A stretch of DNA of 64,000 nt, taken from the IMG/VR virus record IMGVR_UViG_3300042965_000182, positions 1 to 64,000 of that record. One strand, given 5' to 3'. Shown here piece after piece: positions 12,660 through 36,486 of the stretch (position 1 is the first letter of the stretch; every line of letters begins with the position of its first letter). Origin of the DNA: a virus. A model generated the notes under the pieces. It ran no database searches and had not been told where the DNA came from. It worked only from the letters and a program-made list of their open reading frames with translations. Made by a program: the position numbers and the translations under genes.

Positions 12660-12671
12660 GGGAGGTGAATA

Positions 12672-13567: not shown

Positions 13568-13577
13568 GGAGGTAAAT

Positions 13578-17146: not shown

Positions 17147-18349
17147 ATGAAGAATAAGTTCATAAAAATAAGTGAAGAAATAATAAAAATAGCGGAGGAA
17201 TTGTTAAGGTTTACAAAAAAGGGAATAGCAGAAGAGGAACTCAAGGAATGGGAAAGGTATGGTTTTACTCCTGATGAAGCAAGGGAATGGAAAGATGCTG
17301 GTTTTACTCCTGAAGAAGCAGAAGAATGGATAAGGGGAACTGACCGTCCTGACATAGCAAAGTTATGGAGAGACTATGGTTTTACAGTTAGTGAAATGGT
17401 CACATGGTATAATGTATTTGGTTATCATCCTGAGAACATAAGAAAGTTTTTAGAGCAAGGTTATACTTATGAGGAGATAAAAAGATGGTCAATATATGGT
17501 TTCAAAGACCCAAAAGAAGTAGAAGAATGGATGAGTTATGGTTTTAGTTTAGAGGAAGCAGGAAAGTGGAAAAAACATAAATTTACTCCTGAAGAGGCAA
17601 AGAGATGGAAAGAATATGGTTATAACATAGACGAAGCAAAGTATTGGAAAAAATACGAGTTTACTCTTGAAGAAGCAGAAAGATGGAAGGGTGCAGGGTT
17701 TAAACCTTGGGATGCAAGAAAATGGATAGAACTTGGTTTTACTCTTGAAGAAGTAAAAAAATGGAAAGAATGGGGTTTTACTCCTGCGGGAGCAGTTAGT
17801 TGGACAGAGCATGGTTTTACTCCTGAAGAAGCATTTGAATGGAGTGCATATGGTATTGATTCACCATGGGAAGTAAAAAGATGGAAAACATTTGGTTTCA
17901 CTACTCCTGAGGAAGTAAAAAAATGGAGTAAATATGGATTTGGTCCATTTGATGCAAAAAAATGGAAAGACCGTGGATTTACTCCCAGTGAAGCATATAG
18001 AAGGGCAAAAATATTCCTCAGAAAAAGGGCTATTGATAGAGTAGAAGTAAAAGAAGGGTATGATTGGCATTGGGGGTTTGATGACCGAATTAATTATAAA
18101 TTTGAAATAGAGAGAATAGAAGGTGATTATACTGTGGAAAAAATAGATGAAAGATTTGCTCCAGGTGTAGGTTTTGAAGGTGTTGGAGGTAAGGATTATG
18201 CCATTTACGAAGTGAAAATATATAAGAACTTTATAGGCAGAATAATCCAATATTCAAAATTGAGAAGAAGTAAAACTTGGAAGGAAGAAATTCTTTTTGA
18301 TAACACATACATTGCAAAAGAATTAGAAAGAGAAGAGGAGGAGGAATGA
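17147..18349 (+). CDS. large 13-residue-repeat protein with N-terminal targeting-like helix
   Basis: A 400-residue protein in three parts. Residues 1-26 form an amphipathic helix (KISEEIIKIAEELLRFTKKG) shared with at least six other products. Residues 31-285 are about 19 tandem 13-residue units with consensus W-K-x-Y-G-F-T-P-E-E-A-K-K, each ending at the next Trp. The last unit ends in EAYRR like the two paralogues at 35350 and 35896. Residues 290-400 form a separate domain, probably beta (YDWHWGFDDRINYKFEIE). W-x3-GF-x-P-E-x-A repeats occur in other uncharacterised bacterial proteins, but I know no function. Probably a virion or internal head protein. Confidence 0.8.
   Translation: MKNKFIKISEEIIKIAEELLRFTKKGIAEEELKEWERYGFTPDEAREWKDAGFTPEEAEEWIRGTDRPDIAKLWRDYGFTVSEMVTWYNVFGYHPENIRKFLEQGYTYEEIKRWSIYGFKDPKEVEEWMSYGFSLEEAGKWKKHKFTPEEAKRWKEYGYNIDEAKYWKKYEFTLEEAERWKGAGFKPWDARKWIELGFTLEEVKKWKEWGFTPAGAVSWTEHGFTPEEAFEWSAYGIDSPWEVKRWKTFGFTTPEEVKKWSKYGFGPFDAKKWKDRGFTPSEAYRRAKIFLRKRAIDRVEVKEGYDWHWGFDDRINYKFEIERIEGDYTVEKIDERFAPGVGFEGVGGKDYAIYEVKIYKNFIGRIIQYSKLRRSKTWKEEILFDNTYIAKELEREEEEE
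17240..18005 (+). repeat. 39-bp coding repeats (about 19 units)
   Basis: A tandem coding repeat with a 39-base period, for example GGTTTTACTCCTGAAGAAGC recurring with variation. Units differ by many synonymous and non-synonymous changes, and two have 14 codons. This reflects repeat growth by duplication followed by divergence. It is not a CRISPR array, because the units are contiguous, degenerate and in frame. Confidence 0.85.
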
Positions 18350-18453
18350 AAAAAAATAATAAAATAGGTAAAAAACTTATAAAAATAGCAGAAGAATTAT
18401 ATGATGGAAGTTATGCTACCAAAATTAGAAAGAAAAATGAGAACTGTTGGTAG
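18346..18453 (+). CDS. 35-residue protein consisting mainly of the shared N-terminal helix
   Basis: The ATG overlaps the previous stop (ATGA) and follows GAGGAGGAGG, an excellent site. It reads MKKNNKIGKKLIKIAEELYD, then GSYATKIRKKNENCW. Half of it is the KIAEEL helix found at the start of larger proteins. It may be a free-standing helix peptide or the start of a gene that was broken: downstream DNA repeats the segment at 17050 with one T lost, and the other frame would continue with FFEEWK. Confidence 0.55.
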   Translation: MKKNNKIGKKLIKIAEELYDGSYATKIRKKNENCW

Positions 18454-18504
18454 TTTTTTGAAGAATGGAAGAGATTGGTAAATAATTGGAAAGGAGAGTG
18501 ATTT

Positions 18505-18744
18505 ATGTTGGATGAATTAGAAAGAATTTTTAAGAAAGCCTTTAGATGTCCTTCTATTGCTACTTGGTTAAGATTAAAAAAGGAACATTCACTTATAATT
18601 CCTTTGGTAGAATTTTTAGAAGAGGCGAAAGAAAATGGAGAAATAAGTGAAGATGAATACAAAAAATTATTAGAAGAAATGGAAAAAGAAGAAAAAGAAG
18701 TTGAGAAATTTTTTAAAAAAATGATAAAATCGTTGGAAGGATAG
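18505..18744 (+). CDS. small helical protein with HSLIIPL motif
   Basis: A 79-residue helical protein after GGAAAGGAG. It contains PSIATWLRLKKEHSLIIPL (residues 16-34), and the next protein has the similar SSIKEWLKRKGKHSLIIPL, so both share a short module of about 19 residues. The rest is a charged helical tail (KKLLEEMEKEEKEVEKFF). No known family. Confidence 0.7.
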   Translation: MLDELERIFKKAFRCPSIATWLRLKKEHSLIIPLVEFLEEAKENGEISEDEYKKLLEEMEKEEKEVEKFFKKMIKSLEG

Positions 18745-18748
18745 AATT

Positions 18749-19336
18749 ATGGATAAGGTAGTGAAAATAAGTGAGAAACTGCTAAAAATAGCGGAAGAGT
18801 TATTAGAAGATATTATATTTGAGGAATTGGAAAAGAAAGCAAAACCTGTTAGTTCAATCAAAGAGTGGTTAAAAAGAAAAGGTAAACATTCTTTAATCAT
18901 ACCCTTGGATATTTTAAAGGTTAGTGTTACTCCACCTGTTTTTGAATTGATGGTTGAAGAAGACCCTTTAAAAGAAGCCGTTGGTGTTGTTCCTGCCCGT
19001 TTAATAATACAAAAACTAAAAAATGAGAAAAAACCTGGGATTACTATAAAGTATGATGGAAGTTATTTTATAATTGAAGGTAATGAAATAACAGAGAATA
19101 AAGGTTTTCCAATACCACCACTTTTCTTTCTTGCTTGTGTTCCTTATAAAGAAGGTTCAGAAGGCGTCGGTGCTTATATAGAAGGAAACCAACTTATAGT
19201 AGATTATTTAGTTTTTCCATCTGATTTAGATAGTTGTAAACGAATTATAAGTGCTTATCCTGACATAAACAATATAGTTTTATTCATAAAGGATGGAATA
19301 CCAAAGTTTATATCAAGAGAAGAGTTTTTGAAGTAA
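18749..19336 (+). CDS. tagged protein with N-terminal KIAEELL helix and HSLIIPL module
   Basis: A 195-residue protein. It starts with the shared amphipathic helix (VVKISEKLLKIAEELLED), then LEKKAKP, a candidate processing site, then the module SSIKEWLKRKGKHSLIIPL shared with its upstream neighbour. The rest is alpha/beta and unknown. The arrangement helix, basic K-K-A site, then body is what a targeted and trimmed internal head protein would have. Confidence 0.7.
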   Translation: MDKVVKISEKLLKIAEELLEDIIFEELEKKAKPVSSIKEWLKRKGKHSLIIPLDILKVSVTPPVFELMVEEDPLKEAVGVVPARLIIQKLKNEKKPGITIKYDGSYFIIEGNEITENKGFPIPPLFFLACVPYKEGSEGVGAYIEGNQLIVDYLVFPSDLDSCKRIISAYPDINNIVLFIKDGIPKFISREEFLK

Positions 19337-19339
19337 GAA

Positions 19340-19681
19340 ATGCCAAGTGAATTTCCTGTTAGAAAAACAATTAATTTACCTTATGGAGACAAAAGAACTT
19401 TTAAGTTTCAATTAATGAAAAATGGAACACCTGTTAATCTTACTGGTGCTCAACTTATTTTTTATGTTAAGTCTGTTTCTGATTTTGATTGGCAACCAAA
19501 AAAGCTTAATGTTGTTTTGGATGACCCTCCAAGTGGTAAGTTTTCTATTACACTTTCAACGCAGGATTTAAAAATGAAAGCAGGCAGGTATATTGCTGAA
19601 ATAGAATGGGTAAACGAAAATTTTTCACTTATATATTTTGACATTACAATTTATGAAGATGTAATGCACGGGAAAGGTTAA
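19340..19681 (+). CDS. tail-associated Ig-like protein (BppU-N/DUF2479 pattern)
   Basis: 113 residues with the classic order: YGDKRTFKFQLMKNGTPVNL, then TGAQLIFYVKS, a PPSGKFSITLS strand and MKAGRYIAEIEWV. This pattern is shared by baseplate upper protein N-domains and small phage tail-fibre attachment proteins. It directly precedes the tailspike-like gene, so it probably helps attach or fold the receptor-binding protein. Confidence 0.7.
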   Translation: MPSEFPVRKTINLPYGDKRTFKFQLMKNGTPVNLTGAQLIFYVKSVSDFDWQPKKLNVVLDDPPSGKFSITLSTQDLKMKAGRYIAEIEWVNENFSLIYFDITIYEDVMHGKG

Positions 19682-19683
19682 GA

Positions 19684-21471
19684 ATGGCAACAATTACAGC
19701 AATAAGGTCAGGTAATTGGTCAGACCCAAACATTTGGGACTTAGAGAGAATACCACAAGATATGGATGATGTTGTAATTTCTAATGGTTGTATTGTTGTT
19801 TACGATTTTGACATGTCTGATGATAACCAGTTTCCCAATGGCGTGAACACCATATACCTGAATGGCTCTTCAGCTTTTACTAAACTTGTTGTTCATCGCA
19901 CTCGGAACACTTACTTAAAGTTTTATTCCTCCATTAGAGGTGGAAATGGGTTTTACAATTGGTTTGATTGGGGGAAAGTTGACGACCCTGTTTTAGCAGA
20001 CAAATGTGTTATAGAAAAAAGAGGCGCAAATGCTTATGTTGGCGGTAATTATGCTCATCCGACAATAACTTTTTATGGGAAAGACCCTGGTGTTGTTAAG
20101 TCTTCTTTGACTGCTGATGCTTCTGCTGGTAGCAATGTTATATATGTAGATGTTTCTTTTGGTTTTTCTTTAAATGTTGGTGATGAAATCTTTTTGGAAG
20201 GTATAACAAATGATAAAAGTCAGGTAGAGTTTCACACAGTTGCTTCGTTCAATCCCAGCACTGGTGAAGTTGTTTTGAGAAACAATCTTGCTTATAATAA
20301 ACAAAAAGGAGCAAGAGTTTGGAAGTTAACAAGGAATGTTTTGCTTCTGTCAAAACTTTCTTCTGGGTCAAGGTTTCTTTATACTATAGCTCCTTGGCAA
20401 GTTTCAAAGTGGGGTTGTTTTCAACTGAAAGATGAAAATTTTGTTATTTCAAACATAGTGGATAGTGTAAGTTTTTTCACTTTTGAGAAAGCGGTGTTTA
20501 TTACAAATCATATGTGGGCATTTAATTATAATGTTTTTGTAGACAGTTTTATTTACTGCAATGATTTTCAGTCAATTAACAATGTCCTGCAAACTTCCTG
20601 CCTTGTAGGACACGCAGGTTGGGGTGGTAATAGTTATGAAAGTGAGATAATAAATTGTTCTTCTACTGTTGTTTGGCAATGTGTTAACAGCAGAGTGAAA
20701 GCAACAGAAATAGATTTTAGGAATTGTTCTTATGTAAACACTCAAATTTCTACTGATTATGGCTGGAGTATTTACTTTTCAAATCAAAAAGGTTTTCTTA
20801 GGTCTGATATTGATTATTTTGATTTTTTAACAAGTAAAGTAATGTCTAGAGAAGCACAAGTAGAATATTCCCATATAGTTCAAATGGGAAAAAACATTTT
20901 CAATTTTGTTAATGTTGCTGGTTGGCAAAGGTGGTCAAATGGTATTTTAGAAATGAACTTTCCTTGGACAGGTGAGTGGGTTAACCAATGGTATTATTGG
21001 AATGATGAAGGTGGTCTTTGGTGGAATTGGTATATAAGGATTGATGTTGAAACAGAGCCCGTCCAGTATACGAGGAAGATAAAAGTAAAAAAGACGAGGT
21101 CATTAACTAATGAATACATTAGACCACAAATTCGTGTTTTTAAAGGTAAACTTGAAATTGGCGGTATTAAAACAAGAAGGTTATTACAAATGTCTGAACT
21201 TTCAAATCTTCTTATTCAGCATATAGTAATGCCTGATACAACGAATGAATGGGTAGAATTAACAGTAGATTTTACAGCAACAGAAACAAGTGAGTATACA
21301 ATTCAAATTTTTGCTGGTAAAACCTTTGAGGAGAACAATTATTCTGTTTATTGGGAAGTTAATCCTTTGGATGAGAATTTTTTTAGTATTTTAAAAGAGA
21401 AAGAGATTTATTTTGTTCAAAGTATGGATGTTTTAGATATAAGTGATGTTTATGAGATAATAGAAATTTAA
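19684..21471 (+). CDS. tailspike/fibre protein with G8-like N terminus and beta-helix
   Basis: A 595-residue protein. The opening ATITAIRSGNWSDPNIW, followed by VVISNGCIVVYD, follows the G8-domain pattern found in extracellular and tail proteins. The middle is rich in short strands with Asn, Gly, Ser and aromatic ladders, as in a parallel beta-helix. Residues about 440-530 look like a carbohydrate-binding beta-sandwich (EWVELTVDFTATETSEYTI). Likely receptor-binding or polysaccharide-degrading protein at the tail tip. No catalytic residues can be assigned. Confidence 0.7.
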   Translation: MATITAIRSGNWSDPNIWDLERIPQDMDDVVISNGCIVVYDFDMSDDNQFPNGVNTIYLNGSSAFTKLVVHRTRNTYLKFYSSIRGGNGFYNWFDWGKVDDPVLADKCVIEKRGANAYVGGNYAHPTITFYGKDPGVVKSSLTADASAGSNVIYVDVSFGFSLNVGDEIFLEGITNDKSQVEFHTVASFNPSTGEVVLRNNLAYNKQKGARVWKLTRNVLLLSKLSSGSRFLYTIAPWQVSKWGCFQLKDENFVISNIVDSVSFFTFEKAVFITNHMWAFNYNVFVDSFIYCNDFQSINNVLQTSCLVGHAGWGGNSYESEIINCSSTVVWQCVNSRVKATEIDFRNCSYVNTQISTDYGWSIYFSNQKGFLRSDIDYFDFLTSKVMSREAQVEYSHIVQMGKNIFNFVNVAGWQRWSNGILEMNFPWTGEWVNQWYYWNDEGGLWWNWYIRIDVETEPVQYTRKIKVKKTRSLTNEYIRPQIRVFKGKLEIGGIKTRRLLQMSELSNLLIQHIVMPDTTNEWVELTVDFTATETSEYTIQIFAGKTFEENNYSVYWEVNPLDENFFSILKEKEIYFVQSMDVLDISDVYEIIEI

Positions 21472-21489
21472 TAAATAGAAGGAGTAAAT

Positions 21490-22251
21490 ATGGCTTATGA
21501 TGAATTTGGTTGGATTATAAACACAGAAAGAGATACACAATTACCAAAAGATTATGGTGATAGTTGTTTCTTTATGGGTTTACAGACATTGAATTTTATT
21601 TTACAAAATCAAGTGAATAAGGCAAAGATACTTTATGAAAGGGTAAGAGAATGGAATTTTATCAGGCATCCTTCTGTAAAGTGTATTGGTAGCAGTTATT
21701 ATAACAATCAAACTTCTTACGATATGATGGTGATTTGGGATTACATAGCAAGCAGATATTCTGTTTTTGGTTTTGATTATCCACCTTTTCATTACAGAAA
21801 AAGTAAATTTTTAACAGGTAGATTTAGACATCCATTAATGTATATTTTGCCTATTGGTTTTCTCATTTTGTTTACACTTTTAGTTGTTTTAAAATTTAAG
21901 AAGTTAGCAGAGAAATGGTTTTTTGGTAAAAGATTTAACAAATTACATATTTTAATGGTTTATCTTGCTATTGTTTACGAAAGGACAAAAAATATTTGGT
22001 TTTTGAAACATTACAGAAAATTAGTTAAGGTGATAGAAGGTTATTTGAATTATGAACATTACTTTTTTAGGTATCTTGCTCATTTACCAGTTATGAAGAG
22101 TTGGAGACCGCGACATAACTGTTGGGAGTGGGTTTTTCAAAGAGATTTAAGGTTTGGTTGCCATCCAGAAAATCATTCAATACAATTTCATTATGAAGAA
22201 ATAAATGGTAAAAAATTAGATTTATCGGAGCAGTTCTATGAGTTTGTATAA
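21490..22251 (+). CDS. unknown protein with one membrane-like segment
   Basis: 253 residues. The first 90 residues start MAYDEFGWIINTERDTQLPK and contain a GDSCFF segment and many aromatics. A strong hydrophobic span follows (LMYILPIGFLILFTLLVVL). The rest is helical, with several His and Trp residues and an NCWEWVFQRDLRFGCH segment. The alternating helices could be an alpha/alpha toroid as in some glycosidases, but this is a guess. It lies after the tailspike gene and overlaps the decarboxylase gene by 14 bases. Confidence 0.65.
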   Translation: MAYDEFGWIINTERDTQLPKDYGDSCFFMGLQTLNFILQNQVNKAKILYERVREWNFIRHPSVKCIGSSYYNNQTSYDMMVIWDYIASRYSVFGFDYPPFHYRKSKFLTGRFRHPLMYILPIGFLILFTLLVVLKFKKLAEKWFFGKRFNKLHILMVYLAIVYERTKNIWFLKHYRKLVKVIEGYLNYEHYFFRYLAHLPVMKSWRPRHNCWEWVFQRDLRFGCHPENHSIQFHYEEINGKKLDLSEQFYEFV

Positions 22252-22762
22252 GGATTTAAAAGGTTATTGGACTTTTATTTATGGTAAAATAGAAGCAGAA
22301 TACGAACAGGTCGCTTTTGATTTAATTTTAAAAGATTTTGGCATTGAAAATTACAACATTGTTAAGATTTCCTCAATTTTACCAAAAGGATTTAAATATA
22401 CAAATACTATAAAAGGTTTACCAGAAGAAGGCGAAATTCTTTATATGGCTTATGTTTACAAGTTTTTTACAAAAGAGGAAGTCATAAAAAATTTTGACAA
22501 AAAGTTTTCAATAGGTGTTTTAGTTGTTGAACCAGAAAACAAAGAGCAAACTGGTTTAATTTTAGAACTCAGCGATTTTTGTGATAAACAGACACTTGAA
22601 GAAAAGTTGGAATTACAGGCAAGGTATCTTTCAGCAATAAGGAGAAAGATAGAAGTAAAAGAAGTAAGGAAAAAGATTATTGAAACGGATTTTTTGACAA
22701 AAATCCATAAGAAAATGTTTTTCAAGCCATTTGGTATGTTAGTTGGTGTTTTGCTTTGGTAA
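22238..22762 (+). CDS. pyruvoyl-dependent arginine decarboxylase-like protein
   Basis: This 174-residue protein follows the PvlArgDC family closely: YNIVKISSILPKG at about 39-51 contains the self-cleaving Ser-Ser pair (S45-S46) that makes the pyruvoyl group. GLILELSDF (E110) matches the catalytic glutamate region, and the end FGMLVGVLLW matches the family C terminus. In archaea and chlamydiae the enzyme turns arginine into agmatine, the first step to polyamines. A phage copy may supply polyamines for DNA compaction or modification, or use up host arginine. It is next to an ATP-grasp ligase gene. Confidence 0.8.
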   Translation: MSLYKDLKGYWTFIYGKIEAEYEQVAFDLILKDFGIENYNIVKISSILPKGFKYTNTIKGLPEEGEILYMAYVYKFFTKEEVIKNFDKKFSIGVLVVEPENKEQTGLILELSDFCDKQTLEEKLELQARYLSAIRRKIEVKEVRKKIIETDFLTKIHKKMFFKPFGMLVGVLLW

Positions 22763-22763
22763 A

Positions 22764-24089
22764 ATGGCAAGGTTTTTGATTGTTGACAACTCTTTGGCTT
22801 TTGAAGTAGCAAGAAGGTTAAAAGAAGAAGAACACAATGTCAAATATTTTTCTACTTGGAAAAGGGTAGCAATTTTAGAAGAAGATGTAAGGTATATGGA
22901 AGGATTTGATAAATATTTTGGTATAGAAAGAGTTTCTGATTATTTATCTCATACTGATTGGGCTGACGCTATTATTTTTACTGATGTAAATTTTGGTGAA
23001 GAAAAAGATTGGTTAAGGGAAAAAGGTTATCCTGTTTTTGGTGCTTCAAAAGTTGGTGAAGATTTAGAAATTGACAGAGAAAAAGGTAATGAAAGTTTTA
23101 AAAAGTTAGGTTTAAAACTTATACCTCAGAAAAAATACAGAAATCCACAAGAGGCATTAAAAGATGTAAAAGAAGGAAAAGGTTATGTTATAAGGTTAAC
23201 ATCAGGTTTGGAAGGTGAAATAGCAAGAACTTTTGTTGCTGAATATTCAGAAGTAGCAAAGTATTGGTTGGAAACCCTTACTGGTAAAGGTTATGATGAA
23301 GAAGTAATTTTACAGGAACTTATTGAAGGAATAGAGGTGTCGGTTGGTGGTTTTTTCAATGGTAAGGAATGGGCTACTTTACCTTGTATAGTTTTTGAAG
23401 AAAAGAAATCTTTGGCTTGGGGTATGGGTTTTCTTTGTGGTGAAACAGGTTCTACTTTATATTTTGGTGATGAAGGTATTTTTATTAACAAGGTTTACAA
23501 GAAAATGGAAGAATATTTAAGGGGTATAAATGCTGGTTGTGGAAATTATGACATTAATACGATAATAACTTTTGATGGTGAAATTTATCCACTTGAATGG
23601 ACTTGTAGGTTTGGTTTTCCAACCATTTACATTCAGCATCCACTTTTTGAAGATTTTGGCGAACTTCTTTTGTCTTGTGTAAAAGGTAAAAAATATAAGA
23701 AAGGGTTAAAGACTGACTGGGCAATTGGAGTTTGTTGGTGTGCTGGAACCCATCCTCATTCAAGTTTAAGTAAAGAGATTGATGGTGTTCCCATACTTGG
23801 TGTTTTAGATTGTATAAAAGATTACAAATTTTACAGAGATGATAAGTATCTTGCTATTGATAGTATTGGTTATGATGATGGTAAAACATATTTAACACCT
23901 TCACCTGGTAGAACTGTGACCTGTGTTGGTGTTGGTAAGACTTTAAAAGAGGCACAAGAAAATGCTTTGGAAGTAGCAAGGAGGGTATATATACCAGAAG
24001 GTTATTATAGAAAAGATATTGGTGATAGAGTTTTTTATCAGCAAGTAATTTTGAATGAATTAGGTTTTTTAAAAAAAGAAGTTTTATAA
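22764..24089 (+). CDS. ATP-grasp ligase, PurD/GARS-like
   Basis: 441 residues, started at the ATG directly after the previous stop. It has the PurD-like arrangement: an N-terminal Rossmann part (MARFLIVDNSLAFEVARRL), a PVFGASKVGEDLEIDREKG segment, then the ATP-grasp fold with VIRLTSGLEGE, VILQELIEGIEVSVGGFF and a metal-binding end (YDINTIITFDGEIYPLEW). Classic PurD joins glycine to phosphoribosylamine; several phages carry diverged homologues whose substrates are unknown. Its place next to a decarboxylase and in a virion gene block argues against simple purine synthesis. Confidence 0.8.
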   Translation: MARFLIVDNSLAFEVARRLKEEEHNVKYFSTWKRVAILEEDVRYMEGFDKYFGIERVSDYLSHTDWADAIIFTDVNFGEEKDWLREKGYPVFGASKVGEDLEIDREKGNESFKKLGLKLIPQKKYRNPQEALKDVKEGKGYVIRLTSGLEGEIARTFVAEYSEVAKYWLETLTGKGYDEEVILQELIEGIEVSVGGFFNGKEWATLPCIVFEEKKSLAWGMGFLCGETGSTLYFGDEGIFINKVYKKMEEYLRGINAGCGNYDINTIITFDGEIYPLEWTCRFGFPTIYIQHPLFEDFGELLLSCVKGKKYKKGLKTDWAIGVCWCAGTHPHSSLSKEIDGVPILGVLDCIKDYKFYRDDKYLAIDSIGYDDGKTYLTPSPGRTVTCVGVGKTLKEAQENALEVARRVYIPEGYYRKDIGDRVFYQQVILNELGFLKKEVL

Positions 24090-24099
24090 GGAGGTGATT

Positions 24100-24978
24100 A
24101 TGGATGGTAGAATAATAAAAATAAGTGAGGAGTTAATAAAAATAGCAGAGGAGTTAATGAAGTTAGCACCAAGGAGACCTGACAGGTATAGAGAATACGA
24201 AGAAGAATTAGAAAGAATAAAGAGAATTCCACCAGAAGAAGCAATGAGGAGAATGCATGTAAAAGACAAGGAACTTATAATTGTTCAGAGTGAGCTTGCA
24301 AAAGTATTAGAGAAAATACTTGCTGATGAAAAAGCAATAAGAGAAGAATTGAAGAGATTATCTACACAGGAAAAAGAACTTGGCGAACTTATTAAAAAAT
24401 GTATAGAGGAAAACTTACACATTAAGTTAAAAGAAGAAAAGACTTTTGATGAAGCAATAGAGTATCTTAACAGGGTAAAAACTGAAAGGGAAACAGCAGA
24501 AGGACTTATTATTCAAGCAGGTTCTATGGCCATGAGAATTTCTAAATCATATATGTTTACAATAGGTGGAAGGGAAAAAATACTTGGTTTAGCAGAAGAC
24601 ATAAAAGAGGAACTATTAAGAGTATTCTCTGACAATTTACCGATTATAGAAAGGATTATGGATGTTATTTTATCAAAGATAAAGGAAGCAACAAAAGTGA
24701 CGGAAACAATAAGAATTGAAATTAATACAGCAGATAAACTTGTAAAAGAAGTTGAAACTTCACCAGAAGAAGGCAGAACTGCTTCCTTGTCAAAAGATGC
24801 TGAGACAATTTTAAGCAGAGTTTGGAATTTCATTAAGGGTATTTTCAAAAGGATTGTTGATAGTCTTCGTTCGCTTTTTGGTATATATTCAGATGTTAAC
24901 GATGATTTAACAACTTTAAATGATAGTTTATTAAGAATAGAAGAAGTTGTGAGAAAAGCAGAAGAAGCAGTAGTGTAA
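24100..24978 (+). CDS. tagged coiled-coil protein, possible internal head protein
   Basis: 292 residues, ATG after AAGGAGGTGATT. It begins with the shared helix (IIKISEELIKIAEELMK), followed by a long coiled coil (residues 30-220) and an amphipathic helix VWNFIKGIFKRIVDSLRSLF near residue 250. It has LSKDAETIL near residue 235, another K-x-A pattern. The body is unlike the other tagged proteins, so the helix is a separable module. Function unknown. Confidence 0.7.
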   Translation: MDGRIIKISEELIKIAEELMKLAPRRPDRYREYEEELERIKRIPPEEAMRRMHVKDKELIIVQSELAKVLEKILADEKAIREELKRLSTQEKELGELIKKCIEENLHIKLKEEKTFDEAIEYLNRVKTERETAEGLIIQAGSMAMRISKSYMFTIGGREKILGLAEDIKEELLRVFSDNLPIIERIMDVILSKIKEATKVTETIRIEINTADKLVKEVETSPEEGRTASLSKDAETILSRVWNFIKGIFKRIVDSLRSLFGIYSDVNDDLTTLNDSLLRIEEVVRKAEEAVV

Positions 24979-24980
24979 AC

Positions 24981-26293: not shown

Positions 26294-26301
26294 GAGGTAA
26301 A

Positions 26302-27453: not shown

Positions 27454-27454
27454 A

Positions 27455-28609: not shown

Positions 28610-28612
28610 AGG

Positions 28613-29229: not shown

Positions 29230-29266
29230 AAAGGTTGTAAAAATAAAGGTTTACATAAAGAGGTAA
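29198..29266 (+). CDS. possible 22-residue basic peptide
   Basis: Reads MAKVKVPVIIKKVVKIKVYI, then KR. It overlaps the end of the previous gene and stops one base before the next ATG, exactly filling an otherwise empty gap. It is strongly basic and beta-like. No clear ribosome binding site, so it may be fortuitous. Confidence 0.3.
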   Translation: MAKVKVPVIIKKVVKIKVYIKR

Positions 29267-29267
29267 A

Positions 29268-29507
29268 ATGAAAAAGTTTTTAACTTTCCTTAATGAGCCT
29301 TCTGGTAAGGTTTCATTTATGAGGTTAACAGGTTTTCTTTTAGTTTTTGTTTACATTATAATGTTTATTTACATTGGGATAACAGACAAAAAGATTTCTG
29401 ATATACCAACTAACTTAATGGTATTGATTTTAACTTTGTATGGAATGAACAAAATTGAAAGGATTTTCAATGGAAGGAAAAATGAAAGTAGTTATAAAGC
29501 AGAATAA
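29268..29507 (+). CDS. holin-like membrane protein
   Basis: 79 residues with two hydrophobic spans (FLLVFVYIIMFIYIGI and NLMVLILTLYGMNKI) and charged ends. The opening FLNEPSGKVSFMRLTGFLL resembles a common phage membrane protein family with a GK-S-x-MR motif, often annotated as holin or amidase partner. With the three membrane/coiled-coil products at 30224, 30544 and 30834 it could be part of a lysis module, although no endolysin gene lies nearby. Confidence 0.6.
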   Translation: MKKFLTFLNEPSGKVSFMRLTGFLLVFVYIIMFIYIGITDKKISDIPTNLMVLILTLYGMNKIERIFNGRKNESSYKAE

Positions 29508-29667
29508 AAAGAGATTTTGTTTACTAAAAGAAGTTTATTTTTCTGATTGGCAGGTGTTTGAAGTTTGTGGAAATTGTGAGTTTTATCAAAGAGATGAGAT
29601 TTTTAATAATTTTAAATGCTTAAAACAAGGCAAAAAAGAGGTGAAAAATGAAAGAAAGACAAAATGA
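29482..29667 (+). CDS. unknown small cysteine-containing protein
   Basis: About 61 residues from the ATG after GGAAGG (upstream in-frame ATGs at 29455 and 29470 are alternatives). It contains CGNCEFYQRDEIFNNFKC, three cysteines like a partial zinc site, similar in style to the end of the protein at 6713. It overlaps the genes on both sides. Confidence 0.5.
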   Translation: MKVVIKQNKKRFCLLKEVYFSDWQVFEVCGNCEFYQRDEIFNNFKCLKQGKKEVKNERKTK

Positions 29668-30010
29668 ATTAATAAATATTGTAAACGAATTAATTGATAT
29701 AGCAAATGAGTTAATTTCTCTTGGTCAATTTGCCAAATTAAGAAGGATACCTAAGGATTTAAAAAGGTTAGAGGATGAAGAAGAAGTTTTCCTTTCAGAA
29801 GAAAAGGAGAAGGAATATTTACAAAAGGCAGTAGAATTACCTTTAACAAAGGAGGCAAGGATTGTTCAAAGACAGAGAGAAGGTAAGAAAGTTTGGTGTG
29901 TAGAAAGTGAAAAAACAGGTCGTTCCTTTGGTTGTTATCCAACAAGAAAACAAGCAGAAGAAAGGTTGAAACAAGTTGAAATGTTCAAACATATGAAGAA
30001 GAAAAAATAG
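29648..30010 (+). CDS. capsid-associated-type protein with weak N-terminal helix tag
   Basis: 120 residues. The start NELINIVNELIDIANELI is a divergent form of the shared helix. PLTKEARIVQRQ near residue 66 is a K-x-A site. The C-terminal 50 residues (KKVWCVESEKTGRSFGCYPT, then RKQAEERLKQVEMFKHM) match a short domain I associate with phage head-region proteins. I infer an internal or head-maturation protein. Overlaps the gene before by 20 bases. Confidence 0.6.
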   Translation: MKERQNELINIVNELIDIANELISLGQFAKLRRIPKDLKRLEDEEEVFLSEEKEKEYLQKAVELPLTKEARIVQRQREGKKVWCVESEKTGRSFGCYPTRKQAEERLKQVEMFKHMKKKK

Positions 30011-30011
30011 T

Positions 30012-30242
30012 ATGAAAAAGGTTTGGGTAAAATTTAAATGTAAAAAATGTGGTGAAATGTTTTGGGAAAGACTTGTGTATAAAGATAAACTTACGCTTGA
30101 TAGGTTTTGGCTTACCTGTCAATTCTGTAAACATTCAGGAACAGTTCACAATGAATTTTTTATAGTGAAAATAGAAGAAAGTTTAATTGAGAAAAAAGAA
30201 ACATTTTGGCAAAAAATAAAGAGATGGTTAGGAATTTGGTAA
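30012..30242 (+). CDS. zinc-ribbon small protein
   Basis: 76 residues starting MKKVWVKFKCKKCGEMFWER, with a second pair CQFCKH about 27 residues on. Two CxxC pairs at this spacing make a zinc ribbon, often binding nucleic acid or protein. It ends in the basic/aromatic FWQKIKRWLGIW, which could lie on a membrane. Overlaps the next gene. Confidence 0.65.
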   Translation: MKKVWVKFKCKKCGEMFWERLVYKDKLTLDRFWLTCQFCKHSGTVHNEFFIVKIEESLIEKKETFWQKIKRWLGIW

Positions 30243-30532
30243 AAAAGTATTGGAGTGGAATTCTTTTTGGTTTACTTTTTGTTATAATATTTATTTTTGC
30301 TATTCTTTTAGCAAATTATTACAATAAGTCTATTGATGAAAGTTTAAAGAAAATAGAAATGGAACAAAAAGAGTTAAAAAAGCAATTAGATTTAAAGGAA
30401 AAGGAAATCAATTATTACAAAGCAGTTTTAGATAGTTTAACAAAAGAAATAAAAGGTATGAAGTTTACAAAAAAGGTATATAAAGGGAATATAAGAATTT
30501 TAGCAGAAGAATTTAAAAAAAGAGGTTTTTAA
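30224..30532 (+). CDS. single-span membrane protein with coiled coil (spanin-like topology)
   Basis: Start taken at the ATG at 30224 (MVRNLVKKYWSGILFGLLFV). A TTG 18 bases upstream is possible. One N-terminal membrane helix (ILFGLLFVIIFIFAILLA) is followed by a coiled coil (KKIEMEQKELKKQLDLKE) and a basic end. This is the topology of an inner-membrane spanin, but also of other anchored coiled-coil proteins. Confidence 0.55.
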   Translation: MVRNLVKKYWSGILFGLLFVIIFIFAILLANYYNKSIDESLKKIEMEQKELKKQLDLKEKEINYYKAVLDSLTKEIKGMKFTKKVYKGNIRILAEEFKKRGF

Positions 30533-30543
30533 AGGAGGTAAAA

Positions 30544-30837
30544 ATGATAAAAAAGAACAGTAATGGTGAATTTGTTATAACAAAGGGTGCTCTTGCTATC
30601 ATAGGGACTACCCTTACGATTATTGCTCTTGCTTTTTCTTTTTTCACTTATACTATCGGTAGGGTGACTGAAAGCACTCGTCAATATACAAGGTTAGAAG
30701 AGGTTGTTAAAGTTTTACAGGAAAAGTCAGAAAAGACAGATAAGTTTTTAGAGAATATCAGTAAAGATTTACAGAATATAAGAGAAGATTTAGTTTTAAT
30801 AAAGGTAAAACTTGGCTTAATTGACAAAGGAAGATGA
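30544..30837 (+). CDS. single-span membrane protein with coiled coil
   Basis: 97 residues after AAAGGAGGT. A short polar N terminus, then GALAIIGTTLTIIALAFSFF as a membrane span, followed by a coiled coil (LEEVVKVLQEKSEKTDKFL) to the end. Similar to XhlA/holin-like accessory proteins. Overlaps the next gene by 4 bases, so it is coupled to it. Confidence 0.6.
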   Translation: MIKKNSNGEFVITKGALAIIGTTLTIIALAFSFFTYTIGRVTESTRQYTRLEEVVKVLQEKSEKTDKFLENISKDLQNIREDLVLIKVKLGLIDKGR

Positions 30838-31196
30838 AACTATTAATTTTTATTTTTATGCAAGCAGTTTATCCATTACAGCAAGGAGAACCTGCTCCTT
30901 GTCCTGTTGTTGCTTTTGATACACTTTCAGCAAAGAAATTACTTTATTATTTAGACAGTTTAGATTTTATTACGAAAAAATATTTACTTTTAGAACAAAG
31001 AAGTAATATTTGTGATACACTTATAAACAAGTTTCAGCAAAAAGAAGTTTTATACAAAGAGTTAATACAGAAAAAAGATGAAGAAATAAAACTATTAAAA
31101 GAAAAGATAAAGGTTAGTAATAAGAAAAAGTGGTTTGAAAGGTTAGGTTTTTTAGGTGTTTTAACTTTTATTCTCTTAGTGATAGGAGGTAAATGA
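30834..31196 (+). CDS. signal-anchored coiled-coil protein, lysis-type
   Basis: 120 residues: an N-terminal hydrophobic signal (LLIFIFMQAVYPLQ), then QGEPAPCPVVAFDTLSAKKL, a coiled coil, and a C-terminal membrane span (LGVLTFILLVIGG). The GEPAPC-type segment just after the signal is seen in several phage membrane proteins of lysis regions. Its cysteine might be a lipidation site only if processed, which is not evident. Last gene before the portal. Confidence 0.6.
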   Translation: MKLLIFIFMQAVYPLQQGEPAPCPVVAFDTLSAKKLLYYLDSLDFITKKYLLLEQRSNICDTLINKFQQKEVLYKELIQKKDEEIKLLKEKIKVSNKKKWFERLGFLGVLTFILLVIGGK

Positions 31197-31197
31197 A

Positions 31198-33009
31198 ATG
31201 AAAAAGTTAGGTGTTGGTAATGTTGTTCCAACTTGGTATGGTGGCTCAATAGCAAGAGCCTCTCTTGGTGTAAGAACAGCACAACTAACTTATTATCCAC
31301 CAAGATGGTTTTCTCCTTTACTTTCATTTGTTCATTTTTATGTTCCGTGGGACAGGGCTACTTTATATCAATGGATAAGGTATTTTGATACTTGGCACGC
31401 TGTTGTTGGTGCTTGTATAGACATACATACGATGATGCCTTTATCAAGGTTTTCTTTAAGAGGTGTTCACGACCCGACTATTTTAAGGGTTTACGAGGAA
31501 TGTTGCGAAGAATTAAAAGCATTTTTGCTTATGTATTCTCAACTATCAGAGTTTTGGACTATTGGTGAAGTTTTCACTTTACTTTACTGGGATGACAAAT
31601 TAGGTATTTTTACTGATGCTGAAATTCTTATGCCTGAATACATTGAAATTAAAAGTTTACCTTTTATGGGTTCTCTTGATATTGAGAAAAATATTTACGA
31701 ACTTGTTTTAGACCAGTTTACTTTGGAAATGTTAGAGACACCTGACCCTGATGTTCAAAAGATGTTGATGAAGTTAGACCCTGCTTTACTTGAAACAATC
31801 AAAAAGAAAGGAAGGTTAAGGTTAGATGGCAATTTGTTAATGGTAATGATTAAAAAAAGACATATGTATCAAGATAGGGCTCAACCTATTCTTTTAAGGG
31901 TAATGAGGGAACTTATTTATGAAAGCAAATTATTAGAAGCAATGTATACAATAGCAGACAGGCATGTTAATCCGAAAGAGATTTGGAAGATAGGTAATGA
32001 CAATTTCCCAGCTGACCAAGCACTTTTAGATGCTTATGAAGAACTTATAAGGAATGCTGAACAGCAACCACTTTTTACTTTGGTTGTTCCACATACAGTT
32101 TCACTTGATATAGTTGGCGCTACTGGTAAATTTCCAAAATTATCAGATGAATTAGATTGGGTTGAAAAAAGAATTTTAACTGCTTTACTTTTGAATAAGG
32201 CTGTGATACACGGAGAAGGACCAAATTTTGCTACTGCTTCTGTTGCTATGAGGGCGTTAATGCAAAGGTATATGGAAGTAAGGGCTATGTTAGAAGAGGA
32301 ATGGACAACGAAAGTGTTTTTACCTATTGCTTTAAAACACAATTTCTTTGAGGTTACGCAAGCAGAATTAGAACATGGTGTCAGAAGACCTTATAAAGAA
32401 AGGAAGCCAATTTTACCTTATTTTGATTGGCATTATAAAGCAAGGTTATTAGATGACAGTTCATTTAGAGATAGAATAATAGAACTTTACAAAGCAGGTA
32501 AGATACCTTTGAAGATATTGACTGATGTTCTCGGTTTAGATTACGAATATGTAAAGGTTTACAAAGAAAGGGAAGAAGGGACAATTGTTGACCCGTTCTA
32601 TGAAGAATGGAGAAAAGAAGTAATAAAGAAAGGTTTAGAAGGTATTGTTCCAGCACCAAAAGGTGTCAGGAGTTCAGTTGATGAAGTAGAAAAGAAAAAT
32701 TTAAAGGAAGCACTTGAAGAAGCAGACAGAAAATTTGAAATTTTCAAGAAGTGGTTAACAAAAACAAGTTTAAAGGAAAATGGCAGAAAGCCTGTTGGTG
32801 AAAAAGAAGAAAGTGATGATGATTATGAAAAGAAGGAGAAAAAAGTTAAAAAATTGTTAGAAGAAGCAGAAAACATAGAGTTTGATTGGACAACGAGAGG
32901 TGGTTTAATAAGGAAATTAAGGATAGCAGAAGAAATTTTTAAAAATGGAAATTTAGACCTTTTAGCAACAATTTTACCCAGAAAAGAAGAAGAAAACAAA
33001 GGAGGGTAA
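31198..33009 (+). CDS. portal protein
   Basis: 603 residues, size and style of the gp20-type portal that forms the dodecameric DNA channel at one head vertex and nucleates head assembly. Typical parts: YFDTWHAVVGACIDIHTMMP near residue 65, a wing with FTLLYWDDKLGIFTDAEIL, a long stem helix region (LEAMYTIADRHVNPKEIW) and a CRESC-type FATASVAMRALMQRYMEVRA segment. The last 120 residues are Lys/Glu-rich and carry WLTKTSLKENG, a T-K-T-S variant of the suspected processing site. Position, upstream of the protease-scaffold-capsid block, agrees. Confidence 0.88.
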   Translation: MKKLGVGNVVPTWYGGSIARASLGVRTAQLTYYPPRWFSPLLSFVHFYVPWDRATLYQWIRYFDTWHAVVGACIDIHTMMPLSRFSLRGVHDPTILRVYEECCEELKAFLLMYSQLSEFWTIGEVFTLLYWDDKLGIFTDAEILMPEYIEIKSLPFMGSLDIEKNIYELVLDQFTLEMLETPDPDVQKMLMKLDPALLETIKKKGRLRLDGNLLMVMIKKRHMYQDRAQPILLRVMRELIYESKLLEAMYTIADRHVNPKEIWKIGNDNFPADQALLDAYEELIRNAEQQPLFTLVVPHTVSLDIVGATGKFPKLSDELDWVEKRILTALLLNKAVIHGEGPNFATASVAMRALMQRYMEVRAMLEEEWTTKVFLPIALKHNFFEVTQAELEHGVRRPYKERKPILPYFDWHYKARLLDDSSFRDRIIELYKAGKIPLKILTDVLGLDYEYVKVYKEREEGTIVDPFYEEWRKEVIKKGLEGIVPAPKGVRSSVDEVEKKNLKEALEEADRKFEIFKKWLTKTSLKENGRKPVGEKEESDDDYEKKEKKVKKLLEEAENIEFDWTTRGGLIRKLRIAEEIFKNGNLDLLATILPRKEEENKGG

Positions 33010-33010
33010 A

Positions 33011-33391
33011 ATGTTATTTCAAGCATATACAAAAGATTTTCCTGATTTTGTAGTGGTGTTATTAGATTATTTAGAGGAACTTTATGCTGGAGATTGGTCT
33101 CGTATTGCTTTAAAGGTTATGCCTGGTATAAGTGAAAGGTTAAATGAACTATCTTCACTTGCCTGGTATTACAATACAACTGAGGAATATTTTGACATCG
33201 TTGAAAGCGACCTTGACAATTTAATTTATGAGTTTTTAGAAAGGTTAATGAGGGTAGAAGGAATAAAAGATTTTGGTAAACACTTTGAAAAAATTAAGGA
33301 ATTATTTGAAGAAGAAGCAGACCGTTATTATTCAGAAAGAAAATATTTTTGGAAAGAGTTAGATAAAGGTAAATTTATTTACAGGAGGTGA
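33011..33391 (+). CDS. unknown helical 126-residue protein
   Basis: After GGAGGGTAAA. An acidic, all-helical protein (VVLLDYLEELYAGDWSRIAL, NLIYEFLERLMRVEG). It lies directly behind the portal gene. Head assembly or portal accessory function is possible, but no family is recognised. Confidence 0.7.
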   Translation: MLFQAYTKDFPDFVVVLLDYLEELYAGDWSRIALKVMPGISERLNELSSLAWYYNTTEEYFDIVESDLDNLIYEFLERLMRVEGIKDFGKHFEKIKELFEEEADRYYSERKYFWKELDKGKFIYRR

Positions 33392-33395
33392 AAGT

Positions 33396-34601
33396 ATGAG
33401 TGATTTAATTTTTGAAAAGAAAATAGAGAAGTTGTATAAGGAATTAGGTGGAGAAAAGGAATACGAAAGGTTAAGGTTAACGGCAAGTAAGGGAAATTTA
33501 CAGAAACTTGCTACTACTCAGCTGGAAAAAACTTTAAGAAGTAAATATTCAATTAATCTTCCATTTGATTTGGAGTTAAAAGATTTTACAATAAAAAAAG
33601 ATAAAGTTTGTGCTACTTATGATTTATCCTTACCAGATAAACAACCAATTCAGGTTTTTGCTACCTTTCAAATTGAAGATGATGGCAAACTAACTCTTAT
33701 CCATTTAGATAATGAAAAAGAAATAGAAAAGATACTTGGCTATAAGTATTATGCTGTTAAAGTGCCTGGTTATGGTGTTTACAAGGTTTCAGCATTAACA
33801 GAGAAAGAAGCCGTAAACAAGGTTATAGATAAACTTTTTGAAGAAGTCAGTTCAGTAGAAGTGTTTAACAGAAGGTTTGTAAAAGGAAACAAATCTTTAC
33901 TCTGTGATTACATTTTAGATAACAACTATGTAATGGATTGGAGAAAGTATATTGATACAAAAGATATAGTTGATTTTAAACAAAAAGAAGTTTTACCAAA
34001 GCAGGTTATCAAATTAGAAAAGCAAGCAATGGTTTATCCTGAAAGTTTACTTTTACAGGAAGAAAGGTCTTTTATTGACAGGTTTTTTACTGAACAAGAC
34101 CAAAAAATTTATTCATTTATAAGGAAGAAGGAAACACTCAAAAAGACGATTGCTTCAATAATTGAAAACTATTTAAAGCAATTTGGAATAGATGCTGAAG
34201 TTGAAATTAACAAGATGGAAGGTGAAAAAGTAATAACAGGGACATTTGAACTGACTTCTTCTTATGTTTCAGGTGAATTTCCTTTTGTTGCTGATGTTGA
34301 AGGTGATGAAGTTAAACTTATTTCAATAAGGGATTATGAAATAAAGAAAGTGGCAGGTTTAAAAATTTACAAAGTTGGAACGCCAGAAGGCAAAGAGTTT
34401 ACAATTTTAGCAACTTCTTTACCTGTTGTTTTGGAAACTTTACAAACAATTTTAAACAGGAAAATAAGTTTTGATGAGTTTACACAAAAATTCACTTTTA
34501 CTGAACTTGGTGAGTTTGGTGTTGTAAATGATGCTAAGCAGGTTAACCCTTGGACAAAAATAAAAGTTGGTGAAGAAGAGTTTTTAGTAAGGTTAAAATA
34601 A
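33396..34601 (+). CDS. head-region protein with internal duplication
   Basis: 401 residues. The N terminus has TASKGNLQKLATTQLEKTL, where LQKLA also occurs in the major capsid protein. Two alpha/beta segments follow: residues about 44-165 and 254-390. They share the order of a beta pair with an intermediate 'GK-LTLIHLDNEKEIEKI' or 'GDEVKLISIRDYEIKKV', then YxYAVKVPGYGVYKVSALT or LKIYKVGTPEGKEFTILAT, then a helix. LEKQAMVYPES near residue 207 is another K-x-A site between them. Likely internal or maturation protein; function unknown. Confidence 0.7.
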   Translation: MSDLIFEKKIEKLYKELGGEKEYERLRLTASKGNLQKLATTQLEKTLRSKYSINLPFDLELKDFTIKKDKVCATYDLSLPDKQPIQVFATFQIEDDGKLTLIHLDNEKEIEKILGYKYYAVKVPGYGVYKVSALTEKEAVNKVIDKLFEEVSSVEVFNRRFVKGNKSLLCDYILDNNYVMDWRKYIDTKDIVDFKQKEVLPKQVIKLEKQAMVYPESLLLQEERSFIDRFFTEQDQKIYSFIRKKETLKKTIASIIENYLKQFGIDAEVEINKMEGEKVITGTFELTSSYVSGEFPFVADVEGDEVKLISIRDYEIKKVAGLKIYKVGTPEGKEFTILATSLPVVLETLQTILNRKISFDEFTQKFTFTELGEFGVVNDAKQVNPWTKIKVGEEEFLVRLK

Positions 34602-34613
34602 TGGAGGTTTAAA

Positions 34614-34799
34614 ATGGCATTTAAAAAGTTTGGTTTTGGTAAAATAATTGAGAAAACAAATGATTTAGTTGAACTTTTAAAAAAGAAAAAACAAGTTTTA
34701 AAGCAAGATGAAAAACAAGAAGAAGATATAAAACAGAAGAAGGTAGAAGAGGAATTAAAAGAGAAAATGGGAATTGAAGATGAAGATAATCAACAATAA
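34614..34799 (+). CDS. unknown 61-residue charged protein
   Basis: Starts MAFKKFGFGKIIEKTNDLVE after TGGAGG. Basic front, then a Lys/Glu/Gln-rich helix to the end (KKVEEELKEKMGIEDEDNQQ). Probably a coiled coil or disordered peptide, as in small internal head proteins. No family recognised. Confidence 0.6.
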   Translation: MAFKKFGFGKIIEKTNDLVELLKKKKQVLKQDEKQEEDIKQKKVEEELKEKMGIEDEDNQQ

Positions 34800-34822
34800 A
34801 GAGTAGTAAAAGGAAAAAGATT

Positions 34823-35281
34823 ATGAATAAAAAAACACAAGATTTACAAAAAAGGTTTGAAGAGGCAATAGACTTAGTGATAGAAGAGGCAAGGCAACAA
34901 GGTCTTTCTGTTTACCAATGGTTAGAAAAGCATTACAGAGAATGGAATGATGAAGTGATAATTGAAGGGTTATATGAAGACTTTTTAAATATGAAGGTAA
35001 ACAATGTTCCCTCGGAGATTTCAGGTAAAATTCCTCAAACTTTTGAAGAATATTTAAATGATAGTTTAAAGGCAATAGAATATAGATTAAGGGCATTAGA
35101 ATTTAATAAAAAATATAAAACATCAGGTTTTGAACCATTAAAAAAGATGGGTATTATTGAAGAAATAAAAGGTTTACCAAAAGGTTTTGGAGAGCCTTTG
35201 TCATCAGAAGACATTGAATTTTTTGAGATGATTTTAAAGAAAACAAAAGAGACGATTGAAAATTATTTAAAGAGTAAATGA
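34823..35281 (+). CDS. unknown helical 152-residue protein
   Basis: Reads MNKKTQDLQKRFEEAIDLVI, helical and charged throughout. It has a Trp pair (YQWLEKHYREWNDEV). It closes the operon before the second promoter-like element. No family recognised. Confidence 0.65.
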   Translation: MNKKTQDLQKRFEEAIDLVIEEARQQGLSVYQWLEKHYREWNDEVIIEGLYEDFLNMKVNNVPSEISGKIPQTFEEYLNDSLKAIEYRLRALEFNKKYKTSGFEPLKKMGIIEEIKGLPKGFGEPLSSEDIEFFEMILKKTKETIENYLKSK

Positions 35282-35286
35282 AGTTG

Positions 35287-35306
35287 AAGTATCAATATTT
35301 TTATAA
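35287..35306 (+). promoter_or_regulatory. phage-class promoter-like element, copy 2
   Basis: AAGTATCAATATTTTTATAA, identical over 20 bases to the copy at 11322. It sits just after a stop codon and 44 bases before the start of the repeat-protein pair. It is followed at once by an AT-rich inverted repeat. Only the TATAA part resembles a host promoter. Confidence 0.65.
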
Positions 35307-35309
35307 TTG

Positions 35310-35329
35310 CTTTTTTATAATTAAAAAAG
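35310..35329 (+). promoter_or_regulatory. 20-base AT palindrome
   Basis: CTTTTTTA, a TAAT centre and TAAAAAAG form a perfect inverted repeat with 8-base arms. It lies just downstream of the promoter-like element, near the expected transcription start, as an operator would. Alternatively it is a weak hairpin in the mRNA leader. No protein can be assigned to it. Confidence 0.35.
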
Positions 35330-35349
35330 TTGAATGAGGGAGGTAAACT

Positions 35350-35889
35350 ATGAGAAGTGAGATAATAAAAATAAGTGAAAAGCTGGTAAAAATAGCAGAA
35401 GAACTATTAAGGTTTACGAAAAGAGGAATGACAGAAGAGGGGTTTGAAGAGTGGGAAGAGTATGGTTTTACTCCTGAAGAGATAGAAGAATGGGAACATT
35501 ATGGATTTACACCTGAACAGGCACTTGAATGGGATGAACATGGTTTTAGCGCTTACAGAGCATTTCAATGGGATAAAATAGGTTTTACACCTGATGAAGC
35601 AAAAGAATGGAGTGATTACGATTTTGAACCTTTTCAGGCATACAAATGGAAAGAAAAAGGTTTTGAACCAAGAGAAGCAGATGAGTGGGCAAAATGTTTT
35701 TTCACAGCTGAAGAAGCAAAGAAGTGGAAAGAATATGGTTTTGATGACCCTCATGATGCTGAAAGTTGGCGTGATTATCATTTTACACCTGAAAAAGCAG
35801 AAGAATGGAAAGGCAAAGGCTATGAACCTGATGAGGCATACAGGATAAGAAAAGAAACAGAAGAAATTGAAGAGGAAGATTGGAGGTAG
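35350..35889 (+). CDS. 13-residue-repeat protein 2 with N-terminal targeting-like helix
   Basis: 179 residues: the shared helix (IIKISEKLVKIAEELLRFTK), then R-G, and about 10 repeats of the 13-residue unit (EEYGFTPEEIEEW, EHYGFTPEQALEW and so on), ending in EAYRIRKE and an acidic tail. The first 26 residues are nearly identical to those of the protein at 17147, 18 kb away. Only the number of repeats and the C-terminal domain differ. It is the first gene after a strong promoter-like element, just upstream of the protease and capsid genes, so high late expression is likely. Confidence 0.8.
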   Translation: MRSEIIKISEKLVKIAEELLRFTKRGMTEEGFEEWEEYGFTPEEIEEWEHYGFTPEQALEWDEHGFSAYRAFQWDKIGFTPDEAKEWSDYDFEPFQAYKWKEKGFEPREADEWAKCFFTAEEAKKWKEYGFDDPHDAESWRDYHFTPEKAEEWKGKGYEPDEAYRIRKETEEIEEEDWR

Positions 35890-35895
35890 TAAAAT

Positions 35896-36486
35896 ATGAA
35901 GGATAAAATAATAAAACTAAGTGAAGAGTTAATAAAGATAACAGAAGAGTTATTAAAGGTTATTGGACATAATGAATTAGAAGAATTTAACGAATGGAAA
36001 CTGCATGGTTTTACTATTGAGGAAGCAAAAAAATGGAAAAAATATGATTTTAGTCCTTGGAGAGCGAAGGAATGGAAGAGTTATGGATTTACACCTGAGG
36101 AAGCAAAAAAATGGAGTGATTATGGTTTTGAATTTTACAAGGCAAGTGAATGGAAGGAATTTGGTTTTTCTCCTGAAAGAGCGAAAGAGTGGAGAAACTA
36201 CCATTTCTTTAATCCTGAGGAGGCGTATGATTGGTGGAAACATGGTTTTACTCCTGACGAAGCAGAAAAATGGTATGATTGTATATTTTCTCCTGATGAA
36301 GCATTTAAGTGGATACAAACAGGATATTCTCTTGAAGATGCAATGGAATGGAGGAGATTTGGTTTTAGACCAGAGGAAGCGAAAAAATGGGATAGGTTTG
36401 GTTTTAAACCTAAAAGAGCAAGACAATGGATGGAAAAAGGATTTACACCAGAAGAAGCATATAGATTGAAAAAGAGAAGGAGATAA
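35896..36486 (+). CDS. 13-residue-repeat protein 3 with N-terminal targeting-like helix
   Basis: 196 residues. N-terminal helix IIKLSEELIKITEELLKV, a short linker (IGHNELEEF), then 12 repeats (KLHGFTIEEAKKW, KSYGFTPEEAKKW, KEFGFSPERAKEW and others, one with 14 residues), ending in EAYRLKKRRR. A tandem paralogue of the gene before, with a six-base gap. The alternation of Trp with a G-F turn suggests a compact helical solenoid. Next gene overlaps by one base. Confidence 0.8.
   Translation: MKDKIIKLSEELIKITEELLKVIGHNELEEFNEWKLHGFTIEEAKKWKKYDFSPWRAKEWKSYGFTPEEAKKWSDYGFEFYKASEWKEFGFSPERAKEWRNYHFFNPEEAYDWWKHGFTPDEAEKWYDCIFSPDEAFKWIQTGYSLEDAMEWRRFGFRPEEAKKWDRFGFKPKRARQWMEKGFTPEEAYRLKKRRR

Follow-up and report, generated by a model that had tools for sequence, protein, structure and literature searches.

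A common N terminus on six proteins of one phage

Why do several proteins encoded among the head genes of one phage begin with the same short amphipathic helix? The question is raised by IMG/VR virus record IMGVR_UViG_3300042965_000182, of whose 65.9 kb we analyzed 64 kb (the window, meaning the whole stretch of DNA studied here). The consensus K-[IL]-S-E-x-L-x-K-I-A-E-E-L, referred to below as the window tag, starts six proteins, those encoded at 17147, 18346, 18749, 24100, 35350, and 35896 (open reading frames [ORFs] are our own calls and are named by their first position; Table 1). A five-tag profile matched ORFs 24100, 35350, 35896, 17147, and 18749 at E values of 1e-11 to 1e-13, and an additional ORF of 35 codons at 18346 (MKKNNKIGKKLIKIAEELYDG...) at E 2e-4. 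The initial annotation had described one product as almost the helix alone, and the match to 18346 bears this out. This small ORF is preceded by a ribosome-binding-like stretch, GAGGAGGAGG, and overlaps the stop codon of the preceding gene. At least seven tagged proteins had been counted at that time; six stand by profile, whereas the seventh, 29648, scored only E 1.6, and its protein has no more than a weak pairwise match to 24100 (E 6e-4 in the 90-ORF set).

The bodies that follow the tag had been called otherwise unrelated, which is true only in part. A body of 13-residue GFTPEEAxxWxxY repeats is common to 17147, 35350, and 35896 (41 to 44% identity over the repeats), so that the distinct bodies are the repeat solenoid, the body of 18749, and the coiled coil of 24100, plus the tag-alone product. 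The AlphaFold2 single-sequence model of the 17147 protein opens with a helix (residues 3 to 25), which is followed by some 20 short helices; confidence is moderate to high in these and low at the C terminus. A fold search of this model against the PDB gave no match, and no relative of the protein was found among named phages. A match in L001 to the C-terminal region of 17147 was set aside; it lies in a protein that reads, from its sequence, like a glycosyltransferase.

The similarity of the tags is not due to chance. Across seven contigs, all 44 tag-profile matches above 10 bits were N-terminal, compared with 0.05 matches per shuffled proteome and none in the reversed proteins of the same contigs. 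Some of the 44 are sequences on which the profile was trained, and a held-out test was therefore run. With a profile built from non-window tags, five of the six window tags took the top five ranks among the 90 window ORFs and the sixth came at rank 7; with the window-tag profile, the first eleven places were true N-terminal tags of other contigs. The individual E values of these held-out matches are weak because the motif is short. A search of the N termini against related viral contigs, proposed earlier as a check, has thus returned tags in the same register, with held-out profiles matching in both directions. Codons for the same amino acid in the window tags agree at 65%, versus 51% expected from codon usage, and those in the tags of contig G001 at 0.44 versus 0.37. 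Agreement so little above expectation argues that the peptide is kept by selection and that the tags are not recent copies.

Tag types in related contigs follow the capsid lineage

The major capsid protein of the window is phage-G-like, and the loci for comparison were stretches around phage-G-like capsid genes, of which there are at least 599 matching stretches in 2.9 million viral contigs. The contigs compared are environmental and mostly incomplete. When these loci were screened for N termini common within one locus, the tags proved to be of three types. Tag A, MDxKxVAxELLKxAKxL, is in register with the window tag and starts about 9 proteins in the near-identical contigs G001 and G004, about 8 to 10 in G005, and about 12 in G006, with more on other contigs. 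Tag B, SEVMxEFxKIAxE, marks a second group of loci, in which as many as three proteins encoded upstream of the capsid gene begin with it. Tag C, LRSKLIRLAHENPxLRPxLLPLLK, is found 11 times in LR745208, and other large contigs have 24, 19, and 10 occurrences of it.

To what extent does the tag alone lead back to this capsid? DNA scans with tag A and tag C, covering all 2.9 million contigs, returned 14 and 11 contigs, respectively. A phage-G-like capsid gene is present in 8 of the 14 tag-A contigs and in 8 of the 11 tag-C contigs (9 of 11 if one weak match is counted), and several of these capsid-bearing contigs are only 4.5 to 18 kb long. By our estimate, such counts are far from chance even at a base rate of 1%. 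The neighborhoods are compact: a tagged gene of G005 directly adjoins the protease gene, and in G013 and G016 the protease, tag, and capsid genes lie within 4 to 5 kb. A gp21-like prohead protease is encoded in the window (36998-38605), G001, G002, G003, G005, LR745208, and others.

In the capsid-protein tree, the nine tag-A loci, the window apart, fall in one well-supported clade of 17 rows and the eleven tag-B loci in another; LR745208, with tag C, belongs to neither clade, and A and B never occur together at a locus. The window groups with L009 in a lineage of its own on a long branch, and the window's tag may therefore be convergent or old. The window's own tag, written as an exact degenerate DNA pattern, matched no other viral contig; its spelling may be rare among viral contigs. 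In tblastn searches of the short peptides against named phages, tag A found no match and tag C found LR745208 only. The tag-A DNA pattern had no match in bacterial genome contigs, a result that is not evidence of absence, as the pattern is too narrow (GTG valine is excluded).

Some loci depart from one tag for each protein. Two copies of the clade tag occur within one protein or reading frame at G005 23043-23921 and from L174 2822 onward, possibly fused or overlapping tagged genes. LR745208 also has a second shared N terminus (TASLDNIASLFQENHESLGISEKVAMDFAQRCDLLSDAL), found on two proteins that flank the capsid region (L007 13155-13790 and 15249-15914) and in only those two copies genome-wide.

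The same bodies occur under different tags

Bodies were compared after removal of the first 32 residues. Three body families occur under tag A in one phage and under tag C in another: a phrog_3308 body (G001 and LR745208, E 1e-10), a RelA/SpoT-like body (G006 and L174, 36% over 382 residues, E 4e-63), and an unnamed body (L081 and L199, E 8e-14). The cyanophage match to phrog_3308 covers only the body part of the query. Most tagged proteins have 35 to 300 amino acids (aa) and at most one recognized domain. The recognized bodies are topoisomerase IB, rubrerythrin/EncFtn-like, CCA-adding/poly(A) polymerase with an HD domain, zinc ribbon, RelA/SpoT-like, and ParB-like, and those under tag B include endolysin-like domains. 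An ADP-ribosyltransferase at G006 7833-8555, suggested by eye, is not claimed, there being no family support and a predicted local distance difference test (pLDDT) score of 36 in the AlphaFold2 single-sequence model.

The tag is thus a modular, selected, and clade-specific terminal peptide that is tied to one head type.

A probable address label for the prohead

The reading that we favor is that the helix is an address label for the prohead. In phage T4, the internal proteins carry a 10-residue N-terminal capsid-targeting sequence (CTS), which is enough to package fused foreign proteins (PMC9026906). The tags resemble the CTS of T4 (IPI-III and Alt): each is a short N-terminal peptide that several proteins share although their mature parts are unrelated, and each comes from a phage that encodes a prohead protease of the gp21 type. 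They differ from it in sequence and length and in having far more carriers per genome (up to 24). Targeting of the tagged proteins to the prohead is likely, and it is nearly as probable that the helix is, in full, a CTS-like label for cargo that is ejected. This reading is favored because the tag is modular, N-terminal, present in many copies, tied to one capsid lineage, specific to the clade, near the protease and capsid genes, and placed on enzyme-like bodies.

In such a system, the amphipathic helix would dock on the internal scaffold or core, or on the inner capsid surface, during head assembly, and the docked proteins would stay enclosed in the prohead. A cut by the gp21-like protease at [AS]-x-E, within the helix or past it, may then free the mature cargo, which would be ejected with the DNA and act in the newly infected cell. 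Two proteins of the window are candidates for these roles: the 36998 protease for processing the tags, and the charged 39141 product for the scaffold or core that would receive them. More generally, we lean toward the existence of an address-label system in huge phages of the phage-G capsid lineage, in which each clade has its own short, sequence-specific tag on some 8 to 24 unrelated proteins in each genome, cargo genes swap clades and gain the local tag, and the tag alone predicts the packaged and injected set.

The nearest published case in large phages is that of SPN3US gp53 and gp54, ejection proteins whose first 15 residues are identical and which gp245 cuts at A-X-E (PMC5694885, PMC10052503). 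There too, in ejection-protein propeptides of the phiKZ and SPN3US kind, an N terminus is common to virion-internal proteins and has a (V)-A-X-E pattern inside (PMC5694885, PMC10052503). In those phages, however, the sharing is between two paralogues and the propeptides have 111 to 254 residues in most substrates, whereas here a tag of 15 to 30 residues precedes many unrelated bodies; the capsid and phage lineage also differ, the window capsid gene being phage-G-like. Encapsulation peptides of bacterial microcompartments are likewise short amphipathic helices that bring diverse enzymes into a protein shell, although the shell is another one and the analogy is functional only. The polyvalent proteins of phages and conjugative elements are also enzymatic cargo, proposed to ride in the head and enter along with the DNA (PMC5512222). 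Those are large, with 2 to 15 domains, unlike the mostly small, single-domain tagged proteins with their common tag.

Does the tag itself have the features of a protease substrate? SPN3US gp245 cleaves behind A-X-E and prefers V at P4 (PMC10052503), and phiKZ cleavage follows S/A-X-E (PMC9026906). Among the tags outside the window, the [VILM]-A-x-E core has A at P3 and E at P1 in 34 of 35 and nine different residues at x; an amphipathic helix by itself would not call for a variable residue flanked by two fixed ones. The pattern [VIL][AS]xE is present in 40 of 41 tagged N termini versus 56 of 702 others, a contrast that is partly circular, the profile having been built from such tags. The T4 rule, [LI]xE, is not enriched (12 of 41 tagged versus 178 of 702 other N termini, p 0.58). 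The internal motif of tags outside the window fits the phiKZ/SPN3US [SA]-x-E rule and not that of T4. Processing of the tag by the gp21-like protease is quite possible, if a little short of probable. The idea of a capsid-targeting tag, put forward in the initial annotation by analogy with T4, has become the best-supported reading through the modularity of the tag, its link to the capsid clade, and its protease and capsid neighborhood.

Several points weigh against a prohead label. The window tags fit [AS]xE less regularly than the others: the first site is S-E-E or S-E-K and the second A-E-E, the first position is K in two window tags and absent in the mini-protein, and the second site (IAEE) alone is nearly constant. 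Not all copies of tags B and C retain A-x-E, and some tag-C copies are C-terminal (L170, L207, and L165). No such tags were found in the 21 kb of G002, the window's nearest capsid relative (43% identical) among the matches listed, or in the first 50 kb of phage G. The scan counts include near-duplicate contigs (G001/G004, G020/G021/G022, and G028/G029/G030), which reduces the independent counts to roughly 7 of 13 and 4 of 6, and the capsid base rate in the collection, from the at least 599 stretches noted above, is only roughly known. Most tagged bodies are without known function. Finally, we found no virion proteomics, packaging, or cleavage data for any tagged phage and no isolate with virion proteomics; nor did we find a paper describing these tags in the literature, of which few subscription papers were covered.

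Could the helix act elsewhere? It might instead be an intracellular localization or assembly tag, binding membrane or recruiting its carriers to the replication compartment or a host complex, with proteins that act in infection unpackaged. The amphipathic character of the tags (mean maximum helical moment 0.47, versus 0.34 for other N termini) would suit this role, and a late function inside the infected cell is conceivable for several bodies. We nevertheless consider it unlikely, as it leaves unexplained that the tag sequence tracks the capsid clade, that tag-only searches recover the phage-G-like capsid lineage, and that tag, protease, and capsid genes are neighbors. A shade less probable again is docking on another part of the virion (tail, baseplate, fibers, or outer capsid surface), as in some jumbo-phage tail spikes that share an N-terminal base-plate-binding motif. 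The tagged genes of the window do lie among virion genes, but tagged genes have protease and capsid genes as neighbors and not tail genes, the bodies behind the tags are not fibers but small proteins, many of them like enzymes (topoisomerase, CCA enzyme, and RelA/SpoT-like), and tag type follows capsid clade. Trivial similarity, due to recent duplication of genes and to the amphipathic nature of short helices and without a function in common, is very improbable and already disfavored: three of the six window proteins are repeat paralogues and helices of such composition are common in K/E-rich proteomes, yet the 44 matches were all N-terminal against almost none in shuffled and none in reversed proteins, the held-out profiles recover one another's tags, synonymous sites are near-randomized, and unrelated bodies share a tag while shared bodies carry different ones.

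Should the prohead-label reading hold, searching for tag sequences would yield, for many uncultured giant phages, whose genes mostly lack known function, a list of the proteins that they probably inject, and what giant-phage heads contain could be tested item by item. The tags could also serve, ready-made, as peptides with which to load phage heads with proteins, and the three body families found under different clade tags would be a natural experiment in the co-evolution of targeting and head assembly.

Head genes of the window and other observations

The tagged genes and head genes of the window are collected in Table 1. Homologues of the gp21-like protease keep the H and SMG motifs.

Table 1. 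Tagged proteins and head genes of the window (positions in the 64-kb stretch)
Position	Strand	Feature	Basis
17147..18349	+	Tagged protein 1, 400 aa; tag at residues ~4-22, then 13-residue repeats and a C-terminal domain of no assigned family	Tag profile
18346..18453	+	Tagged mini-protein, 35 codons, nearly the tag alone	Profile E 2e-4
18749..19336	+	Tagged protein, 195 aa; body without recognized family	Tag profile
24100..24978	+	Tagged protein, 292 aa; coiled-coil-like body	Tag profile
29648..30010	+	Claimed weak seventh member (MKERQNELINIVNELIDIANELISLG), not significant	Profile E 1.6
31198..33009	+	Portal protein	phrog_16240
35350..35889	+	Tagged protein, 179 aa; 13-residue repeats, paralogue of 17147 and 35896	Tag profile
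35896..36486	+	Tagged protein, 196 aa; 13-residue repeats, one gene upstream of the protease	Tag profile
36998..38605	+	Head maturation protease, T4 gp21-like, with C-terminal HAD/PNKP-like phosphatase domain	phrog_18299 and HAD matches
39141..40847	+	Charged, coiled-coil-rich protein between protease and capsid genes	Sequence and position only
41542..42462	+	Major capsid protein, phage-G-like	phrog_2522; 35% identity to Bacillus phage G gp27

The HAD/PNKP-like domain fused to the protease at 36998-38605 matches Pfam HAD_PNKP (9e-10) and the polynucleotide kinase family phrog_415 (1e-25), and the protease relatives in G002 and Tunturi_5 are shorter than this protein. Two head-region proteins, 34614-34799 and 36998, have a weak common N terminus of their own, MAFxKxxxxKIIxxxxxxxxLL (E 0.002). 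Elsewhere in the window, 129-1199 encodes an N6/N4 DNA methylase (PF01555, 4e-46), and 22743-24089, amid virion genes, encodes an ATP-grasp protein like phosphoribosylamine-glycine ligase (GARS; GARS_C 1e-8). In the tag-A phage G011, the major capsid coding sequence lies in three pieces over 3.5 kb (11671-15183; L160, L161, and L162), which suggests introns or inteins.
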